Of a DNA stretch of 64,000 nt, positions 47,241-48,923 are shown piece after piece. Made by a program: the position numbers and the translations under genes. The stretch comes from Culturomica sp. (GTDB taxonomy: Bacteria; Bacteroidota; Bacteroidia; Bacteroidales; Marinifilaceae). Every line of letters starts with the position of its first letter. Positions within the stretch are counted from its first letter, which is position 1. Under the pieces are notes generated by a model, which had not been told where the DNA came from, did no database searches, and worked only from the letters and a program-made list of their open reading frames with translations. The stretch is from assembly GCA_031262745.1 (NCBI GenBank), contig JAISHE010000012.1, positions 38,706 through 102,705 of the forward strand, given 5' to 3'.

Positions 47241-48023
47241 TTAATAGACTTTGGGTACCAATTCAAAGAAGCCGCTGATTTCCTGTTGATCAATTGCTTG
47301 GCGAACATTAAATCGTTTCACTTGATCTTCATAACCACTTTTAGTTACCTTTATTTCAATCGTTACATCACGTGAATTTTCGTAGGTAAGTCCTAAAATA
47401 TTAAACGAGCGAGTTTCTTCGTAGGGGGTACTTGTCAGATACAGTTCGTTTGTGTTTTTGACAACAGCCGGTATGCTGGAAATGACTCTCCAAAAGATTC
47501 GTGCTCCGCGAGGATCCGAATCGAAGTACCAACGAATAATCGTTCTTTCCAATTCCGTATCGCCGGGGGTGTCGCGAGTAACCATATTTTGCGCCTCGCC
47601 GGCTTTAATGGTGGGATCGGCGATGTATGATTTGACTTCGGCGATACTTGGTTTGAATTCATAGAATACATCAGGATTTGCATATTTCCAAAATGCACCG
47701 GTACCAAGGTCAATTAATCCACCAGGGATACCACCCAGAAGAATATTACCGATAACTACCGGATTGAATGACCCATTAACTTTGACTTCTCCATCTTCAT
47801 ACCCTTGTTTTTGAAGGGTAATAGTTGCCACTTTTTTCCGTGGAACTTTAACTTCAGCGGGAGTTATCACTCGCTTATCTTCTCCATTTACAAACACTCT
47901 TGCTCCTGATGGTATTGAAGAGATCGACATTGCCTGTTTACTGCCGGAAAGAATTGTTGCGCATGAATTAAAAGTCATTGCTGTTATAATGCCCACAATT
48001 CCTATAAAAAGTAATCGTTTCAT
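47241..48023 (-). CDS. PEGA-domain lipoprotein
   Basis: The 260-residue protein has a lipoprotein signal (TAMTFNSCATI, Cys near 21) and a PEGA-domain start: SISSIPSGARVFVNGEDK, TPAEVKVPRKK, ITLQKQGYEDGEVKV. A second PEGA-like unit is visible (DSDPRGARIFWRVI, TKSGYEDQVKRFNV). PEGA domains are short beta modules found on surface or envelope proteins. It is unlinked in function to neighbours. The region upstream carries a structured RNA candidate on the same strand. Confidence 0.75.
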   Translation of the reverse strand: MKRLLFIGIVGIITAMTFNSCATILSGSKQAMSISSIPSGARVFVNGEDKRVITPAEVKVPRKKVATITLQKQGYEDGEVKVNGSFNPVVIGNILLGGIPGGLIDLGTGAFWKYANPDVFYEFKPSIAEVKSYIADPTIKAGEAQNMVTRDTPGDTELERTIIRWYFDSDPRGARIFWRVISSIPAVVKNTNELYLTSTPYEETRSFNILGLTYENSRDVTIEIKVTKSGYEDQVKRFNVRQAIDQQEISGFFELVPKVY

Positions 48024-48116: not shown

Positions 48117-48151
48117 AAAAAAAGCGCGGACAAAACTCAATTTATCTGCGC
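48117..48151 (-). terminator. terminator of the small RNA candidate
   Basis: GCGCGGACAAAACTC and the facing AATTTATCTGCGC form a long stem with one mismatch (48124-48151), followed on the minus strand by seven T (48123-48117). Confidence 0.85.
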
Positions 48152-48385
48152 TACGAGGATCTGGACTTCCTAAACAACCAAATAACGAGTAAAGTCCACG
48201 CCTGAGGTGTGAACGTTTACACCTATTTCTTGGTTGTTTTTTGAAATTGTCCAGATTTCGTAAACGCAAGAATACAAGCTAAACGCTTTTTCCAAAATAT
48301 CTTAAAATGTGTACATCAACACACGTTTTTTAATCCATAATCATTTATATTTAAAGGTTACATTCAAATCACTATAAGTTTATGA
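48117..48385 (-). ncRNA. highly structured small RNA candidate
   Basis: On the minus strand, a promoter (TTG-N19-TAACTTTG, 48392-48421) would start a transcript near 48385. It contains an 8-bp stem ATCTGGAC/GTCCAGAT (48159-48166 with 48249-48256), a 10-bp stem AAACAACCAA/TTGGTTGTTT (48172-48181 with 48230-48239), and an apical hairpin AGGTGT/ACACCT (48205-48210 with 48219-48224), nested one inside the next with bulges, and then a terminator hairpin with T7. The overall shape, one long interrupted hairpin, recalls 6S-type RNAs, but this is an impression. No ORF is supported. The 5' about 120 bases show little structure. Confidence 0.65.
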
Positions 48386-48391
48386 CAATTG

Positions 48392-48421
48392 CAAAGTTAG
48401 ATATTTTTTAATAAAATACAA
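48392..48421 (-). promoter_or_regulatory. -33/-7 promoter of the small RNA candidate
   Basis: TTG (48421-48419), 19-base spacer, TAACTTTG (48399-48392) on the minus strand; a full match to the Bacteroidota consensus. Confidence 0.65.
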
Positions 48422-48617: not shown

Positions 48618-48923
48618 ATGAAAACGTCCAAAACATTCATTAAATCACACATTTCAAGTTGCTTATCGTCGACAATACTTGGAAGATTGTCGACAGCATT
48701 CACAAGATTGTCGACAGCATTTATAAGATTGTCGACAGCATTCACAAGATTGTCGACAGCATTCATAAGATTGTCGACAGTATTCGTAAGATTGTCGACA
48801 GCATTCATAAGATTGTCGACAACATTCGTAAGATTGTCGACATCATTCGTAAGATTGTCGACAATCATGCAACTATCTAACACACAAAGAAAGTCGGTAA
48901 AAATCAATTGTATAATTATTTAA
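48618..48923 (+). CDS. heptad-repeat ORF (uncertain coding status)
   Basis: This 101-codon plus-strand frame is carried by a 21-bp minisatellite and reads RLSTAFI/T repeats. A minus-strand frame (48446-48907; VDNLxNA repeats) and another plus frame (KIVDSIH) are also open, because a stop-free 21-bp unit keeps all frames open. I favour the plus frame because it starts with a normal ATG, ends 11 bases before a DF[VI]P gene, and mirrors the arrangement at 62506-63505, where an analogous repeat ORF precedes the same gene family. Coding is not certain. Confidence 0.35.
   Translation: MKTSKTFIKSHISSCLSSTILGRLSTAFTRLSTAFIRLSTAFTRLSTAFIRLSTVFVRLSTAFIRLSTTFVRLSTSFVRLSTIMQLSNTQRKSVKINCIII
48683..48871 (+). 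repeat. 21-bp minisatellite, 9 units
   Basis: AAGATTGTCGAC recurs at 48683 and every 21 bases up to 48851, each unit holding the palindrome GTCGAC; units differ at two to four positions. An inverted copy (GTCGACAAT) lies just before the array, and the last unit ends in ATTGTCGACAAT. Confidence 0.95.

Follow-up and report, generated by a model that had tools for sequence, protein, structure and literature searches.

The window analysed here, a stretch of 64,000 nucleotides, belongs to a 2.1 Mb draft genome of the Bacteroidales that is 97% complete. On the minus strand, read 5′ to 3′, a promoter (48,422-48,392) is followed by a leader of about 90 nt, a conserved RNA core (48,291-48,117) ending in a run of seven T, a spacer of 93 nt and a lipoprotein gene. 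By its sequence the promoter is of the sigma-ABfr type: the -33 element ATTG (48,422-48,419), which agrees with TTTG in three of four bases, lies 19 nt ahead of a -7 box TAACTTTG (48,399-48,392) that matches the Bacteroidota consensus TAnnTTTG, and transcription would be expected to start near position 48,385. The gene (47,241-48,023, minus strand) encodes a protein of 260 residues with a PEGA domain (MKRLLFIG...NSCATILSGSKQ...) and is the presumed target of the RNA. Farther upstream, between the RNA promoter and a divergent RND efflux operon, a 21-bp unit, AAGATTGTCGACAGCATTCAT, is repeated in tandem 8.6 times (48,683-48,863).

The leader contains a motif, GATTATGGATTAA (48,330-48,342, minus strand), which is the window form of a conserved TTGCCTATGnnnTAA and could be either a minimal open reading frame, ATG-GAT-TAA, or a DNA motif. 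In the wider family described below, 42 of 81 short-type copies have a conserved TTTGCCTATGnnnTAA some 45 nt ahead of the core. In 76% of cases its ATG runs into a stop after no more than three codons, against 35% for other nearby ATGs; since a DNA motif explains this excess equally well, a start-stop frame serving as a leader peptide was rejected. An attenuator built on an amino-acid leader peptide was also rejected, the upstream frame being very short (mostly one to three codons), variable in its second codon and present in about half of the short-type copies. Closer to the core, the sequence allows a hairpin, GTGTGTTGATGTACACAT (48,307-48,324, minus strand), the 3′ arm of which has a second possible partner in ATGTGTA, immediately beyond the T-run. 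For this second pairing, which spans the T-run, covariation is weak in short-type copies (z = -4.1) and absent in long-type ones (z = -0.5).

The core itself was delimited with a covariance model, R1, built from 14 copies of the RNA, which matches positions 48,291-48,119 with 160 bits; the rest of the T-run completes it. Its strand has a folding energy of -56.2 kcal/mol (z = -6.0), which none of 200 shuffles equalled. The 5′ domain (48,212-48,287) consists of helix D5a (AGCGUUU:AAACGUU), helix X:Y (UAUUCUUG:CAAGAAAUA) and hairpin A (48,243-48,259), in which GAAAU and AUUUC enclose CUGGACA; folded alone, it forms the expected hairpin at -18.4 kcal/mol. The 3′ domain (48,117-48,201) is an intrinsic terminator, with a stem GCGUGGAC:GUCCGCGC, helix Z:W (UUAUUUG:CAGAUAA) and hairpin B, which holds AGUCCAGA between AGGA and UCCU. 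Its 3′ end reads GCGC...GUCCGCGC and then the seven T (48,123-48,117), and by itself this domain folds into the terminator hairpin at -31.1 kcal/mol. At least seven T in the 10 nt after the terminator stem are found in 107 of 114 family members. A more local terminator, GCGGA:UCCGC beside the T-run, was discarded in favor of this stem (c:d), as by eye it is not conserved across members. Where the two domains adjoin, a hairpin termed P5 (48,194-48,214; GUUCACACC/GGCGUGGAC) is proposed as the antiterminator, and GCGUGGAC is common to P5 and the terminator.

Three further helices connect the 5′ and 3′ domains. P2i (within 48,148-48,267) joins GCGUUUACGA (48,267-48,258) to UCGUAGCGC (48,156-48,148), P4 (within 48,172-48,239) joins AAACAACCAA (48,239-48,230) to UUGGUUGUUU (48,181-48,172), and in P3 the loop of hairpin A (CUGGAC) pairs with that of hairpin B (GUCCAG, within 48,156-48,171). 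The whole rod of the window copy has a predicted energy of -61.1 kcal/mol, and with tertiary contacts excluded it surpasses two separate hairpins by 11.6 kcal/mol in this copy and by 19 on average. Because the predicted energies favor the rod, the terminator state would need help or kinetics. The preliminary description of positions 48,117-48,421 had proposed a promoter, nested stems and a terminator with seven T. All three are upheld, the promoter now with a strand, which had not been named, and the stems as one of two alternative folds. Its statement that no supported gene is present holds for those positions themselves, but it overlooked the same-strand lipoprotein gene just beyond the T-run.

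By BLAST, a second copy of the RNA was found in the same genome (78% identical), together with copies in 5 of the 17 genera of the taxonomic family. R1 identified nine copies in the source genome at E < 1e-4, and matches in 30 of 60 genomes of the taxonomic family, one of which has up to 35 copies. Across the order, 166 of 393 Bacteroidales genomes (97 of 205 genera) carry matches, as do 48 of 393 genomes sampled across Bacteroidota, most of them members of the same class but of other families, and two of them from outside the class. The RNA had at first been considered possibly group-specific; instead, its family spans the phylum. An exact 22-base pattern, searched in named genomes, returned 74 stretches from Prevotellaceae, Alistipes, Rikenella, Muribaculaceae, Barnesiella, Coprobacter, Tannerella, Dysgonomonas sp. 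511, Paludibacteraceae, Lentimicrobiaceae and unnamed Bacteroidales, and from one record labelled Synergistales, which is probably mis-binned. R1 matched all 74, either at full length or truncated at an end (one was cut by the end of a contig). One genome, G016, has at least 35 copies, several of them before a multi-copy gene for a giant surface protein (NNIRVDGKTRVV...RDDFNWDAAW); many of its copies (L115-L120, L128-L139) are at contig ends, often within 200 nt.

The position of the copies relative to genes was counted for 142 copies with at least 450 nt of downstream sequence, gene starts and signal peptides being called by simple rules. The next open reading frame is on the same strand in 136 of them, at a median distance of 65 nt (within 20-150 nt in 104), while a same-strand neighbor is found upstream in 73 of 127; six of the 142 Bacteroidales copies have no close same-strand gene. 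TAnnTTTG occurs within 150 nt upstream of 89 of 113 members, against 17.8 in shuffled sequences, and its two-box form in 44 against 2.4. In the first 60 nt of the spacer, it occurs in one of 113, against 5.0 in shuffles. Such position, orientation and lack of a spacer promoter are consistent with an RNA that would be transcribed together with the gene behind it. Nine members belonging to other families of the phylum were inspected, and in eight of them TAnnTTTG lies no more than 62 nt upstream of the core. In copies from other classes the next open reading frame is 227-513 nt away in five of the nine inspected, and none was found for one; three copies (L223, L225 and L228) lie 227-275 nt before genes with N-termini resembling those of SusC-like TonB receptors. 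Distances of 200-500 nt in some of the distant copies speak against strict cis action.

The downstream genes are diverse. The PEGA lipoprotein is patchy, being present in 6 of 60 genomes of the taxonomic family, and its four clear homologues in other genera (G059, G017, G051 and G016) all lie behind the RNA. Starts resembling signal peptides were called in 83 of 104 downstream proteins, compared with 124 of 449 other open reading frames within the examined loci (28%) and 13 of 109 upstream neighbors. Target families include BspA-type LRR, FGE-sulfatase, Fib_succ_major, BACON, outer-membrane barrel, PEGA and lipocalin-like proteins, and some targets, such as TerD and serine recombinases, are cytosolic. 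As the targets have a surface location in common rather than a pathway, they do not suggest a ligand. Five scanned downstream proteins of the G016 group have an FGE-sulfatase domain, a fold that is also used by targets of diversity-generating retroelements. One copy in the source genome (L109, C27:11249-11432) is followed after 82 nt by several TerD-like genes (MAINL...) in a row, and in two genomes the RNA precedes serine recombinase genes with Resolvase/Recombinase domains (L194:2606-3955 and L171:3783-4976), the two being 80% identical.

These positions bear on whether the RNA is a multi-copy family of small RNAs, in which the terminator would always work, a product of about 270 nt would act in trans, through base-pairing or by binding a protein, and the genes downstream would be mere neighbors with promoters of their own. 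The RNA's own promoter and strong terminator would suit such a family, as would the few copies with no close same-strand gene and the many paralogues per genome, which recall the FopS family of Bacteroides (PMC11697453). The FopS/GibS RNAs of Bacteroides thetaiotaomicron likewise form a multi-copy family with sigma-ABfr promoters, and they regulate the expression of outer-membrane proteins (PMC11697453). However, FopS RNAs are trans-acting molecules of 65-70 nt with a conserved seed (PMC11697453). The present family showed no seed that is both conserved and unpaired, its variable segments being paired within the RNA, and its length and architecture (about 170 nt plus leader, in a cis position) set it apart from FopS/GibS. 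Moreover, the RNA accompanies the same lipoprotein family across genera, and its copies precede gene starts on the same strand, from which no intervening promoter separates them, so a free-standing small RNA gene is the less likely reading and action in trans is, in our view, unlikely. The preliminary description was right in proposing a promoter-driven, structured RNA and less so if by small RNA a separate gene is meant, although termination could still give rise to a short product that accumulates.

The evidence for two exclusive arrangements of the RNA comes from covariation. Compensatory changes among relatives had been named beforehand as a check on the structure, and they are abundant. 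The alignment of 14 sequences has double-sided changes in 21 of 38 pairs and 91.7% of its cells paired, and the covariation score of these homologues is 0.462, against 0.211 ± 0.015 after shuffling and at most 0.118 with the partners slid. For 114 sequences, filtered by similarity (alignment score ratio of at most 0.82) so that kinship is reduced but still present, the duplex energy of matched strands was compared with that obtained when strands were exchanged among members of one subgroup. The pairs of the rod gave z values of -31.9 (P2i), -19.4 (P3), -33.5 (P4), -9.6 (Y:Z) and -12.8 (P5). Those of the domain hairpins gave -9.2 (X:Y), -10.3 (Z:W), -11.4 (terminator c:d), -8.2 (D5a), -7.6 (B-stem) and -3.5 (A-stem), whereas seven unrelated strand pairs ranged from -0.5 to +2.8. 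Because the rod pairs were used to fit the alignment, it is biased toward them; the domain-hairpin pairs are absent from the alignment model, so their covariation was not built in. Both arrangements covary separately in the short-loop (82) and long-loop (32) subgroups.

P3 has 7 bp with 99.5% of cells paired and 261 double-sided against 3 single-sided changes; the loci found with the 22-base pattern add no variation in P3 or the B-stem, as the pattern fixes one version of each. P5 is paired in 95% of cells. Double-sided changes are seen in 42 cells of P5 and in 40 of the terminator stem, so that both of these competing helices covary. Since the terminator stem (GCGUGGG:CCCACGC) and P5 both use the strand GCGUGG, they are mutually exclusive. 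Two elements of the minimum-energy fold were not retained: the X:W pairing does not covary (z = -0.7) and the closing stem P1 (AAGCG:CGCUU) does so little (z = -3.0), which means that the closed rod as predicted is not fully right. The bases of P2i, P3 and P4 are largely distinct from those of X:Y and Z:W, and in the copies inspected closely these helices meet flush. It follows that the two sets either coexist, in a knotted fold with two four-way junctions, or alternate.

Taken together with the position of the genes, this argues that the RNA is probably an uncatalogued class of leader RNA in Bacteroidota which acts by transcription attenuation and decides whether the surface or secreted-protein genes behind it are read. 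An intrinsic terminator at its 3′ end is indicated by the fold, the T-run and the covarying stem; that termination or read-through is regulated, and in which direction, is our inference. Transcribed from its own housekeeping-sigma promoter, the RNA would make up the 5′ end of the downstream gene's mRNA, and P5 would form early in the nascent chain. In the first arrangement, the 3′ half would become a long interrupted hairpin ending in GCGUGG:CCACGC and the U-run, an intrinsic terminator at which the polymerase stops. The 5′ half would be a matching hairpin docked onto it through the loop-loop helix P3 and the internal-loop helices P2i and P4, and the docked hairpins would help the 3′ arm to capture GCGUGG from P5. 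In the second arrangement, GCGUGG would be held in the early-forming P5 within the long rod, so that the terminator could not form and the polymerase would read into the gene. Some signal, whether a small molecule, a protein, an ion or the speed of folding, would shift the balance between the two. More speculatively, and with doubt prevailing, the RNA may be a riboswitch-like class of the whole phylum, in which near-symmetrical hairpins docked by a loop-loop helix and two internal-loop helices at flush four-way junctions form a knotted fold that sets the terminator and exerts global control over surface proteins.

By analogy with EAR/put RNA and the UpxY leaders of Bacteroides, the RNA could also be a leader that does not switch, namely a processive antiterminator, a stabilizer of the transcript or a loading site for a NusG paralogue, with the T-run as its target or by-product. 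A long and strongly conserved RNA between promoter and gene would agree with this, as would the many unrelated targets with no common metabolite. However, such an element would have no need for the strand that P5 and the terminator share and that two-sided compensatory change maintains, and the EAR-type family of Rfam, epsC (RF01735), gave no match here. We therefore hold a non-switching leader to be quite improbable.

Far less probable is a mobile DNA element, MITE- or cassette-like, with inverted repeats recognized as DNA, that spreads promoters and genes and for which the RNA fold is incidental. The number of copies per genome, the many contig ends and the patchy, accessory nature of the targets could point that way, and so could the almost purely Watson-Crick helices P2i, P3 and P4, as in DNA repeats (0-2.8% G-U; practically none in P3 and under 3% in P2i and P4). 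Yet the other helices contain 10-21% G-U, an RNA signature, the copies keep a single orientation relative to the gene with T-run and promoter conserved, and the closest two copies in the source genome are just 78% identical. Narrow queries of viral contigs (one exact pattern) and of phages and plasmids (BLASTn) returned no family hits, and a phage or plasmid origin was discarded accordingly; a mobile cassette or attC-like site was considered as well, and the evidence did not support it. For an attenuating leader, the near-absence of G-U in P2i, P3 and P4, which vary strongly in sequence, leans, if anything, toward docking contacts.

Comparison with known RNAs sets the family further apart. A scan of the whole window against Rfam 15 (4227 families) returned a tRNA as the sole match, and at the locus nothing meaningful appeared at E values of up to 10, 6S and Bacteroidales-1 included. 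The element was not matched by Rfam in 13 relatives or in nine members that represent other families of the phylum, and Flavo-1 (RF01705) did not match members from other families of the class. The proposal of a structured regulatory RNA new to Rfam is thus borne out for the window copy and 22 relatives. A resemblance to 6S RNA had also been suggested. 6S RNA, which usually has a single, free-standing gene, associates with the RNA polymerase holoenzyme and is the template for pRNA. The long interrupted hairpin and similar length are alike, but the comparison fails because no 6S family matches, Bacteroidales-1 (RF01693) and 6S-Flavo (RF01685) among them, and the genome has a separate 6S candidate on another contig; some nine copies per genome, fixed in cis beside the starts of different genes, make even a divergent 6S RNA so unlikely that we dismiss it. 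That candidate (G000, C27:15147-15331, L021) scores 37.7 bits with Bacteroidales-1, below the gathering score of 60, and may be a divergent 6S RNA or a weak match.

In the literature we found no description of this RNA, though it may be among the thousands of unnamed motifs that a 2021 screen predicted (PMC8040213). A study of Flavobacterium psychrophilum lists structured 5′ regions without Rfam hits, and these may or may not include it (PMC9723704). DUF805 (RF03081) and DUF805b (RF02914) are listed in Rfam as cis-regulatory leader motifs of 35-68 positions and match other bases than the present RNA; at L093:1700-1858, a family copy is immediately followed by DUF805b and DUF805 RNAs.

The closest parallels are the terminator/antiterminator leaders, such as amino-acid attenuators, T-boxes and transcriptional riboswitches. 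These too have a promoter, a structured leader and a close downstream gene, with one strand common to the antiterminator (here P5) and the U-run terminator (here c:d). Unlike them, the present RNA has no leader peptide of specific residues and no match to a T-box or known aptamer, and it combines two matching hairpins joined by three helices with targets that are surface proteins of many pathways. c-di-GMP riboswitches also recur within a genome, where they precede many genes that encode surface and extracellular proteins. The style of regulon is similar here and serves as a lead only, as the RNA has no Rfam match to those families and differs from them in size and structure.

Bacteroidota are dominant in the guts of animals, where interactions with diet, phages and the host are decided by their surface proteins. 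To our knowledge, few leader RNAs have been known in this phylum. The class described here is absent from Rfam 15 and occurs in about 40% of the sampled Bacteroidales genomes, and named carriers such as Dysgonomonas sp. 511, Alistipes and Prevotella offer test loci. As the structure is bistable and covaries, stem-swap mutations can test the mechanism directly. Should the switch prove real, many surface and secreted proteins of a cell would be under the control of one signal.
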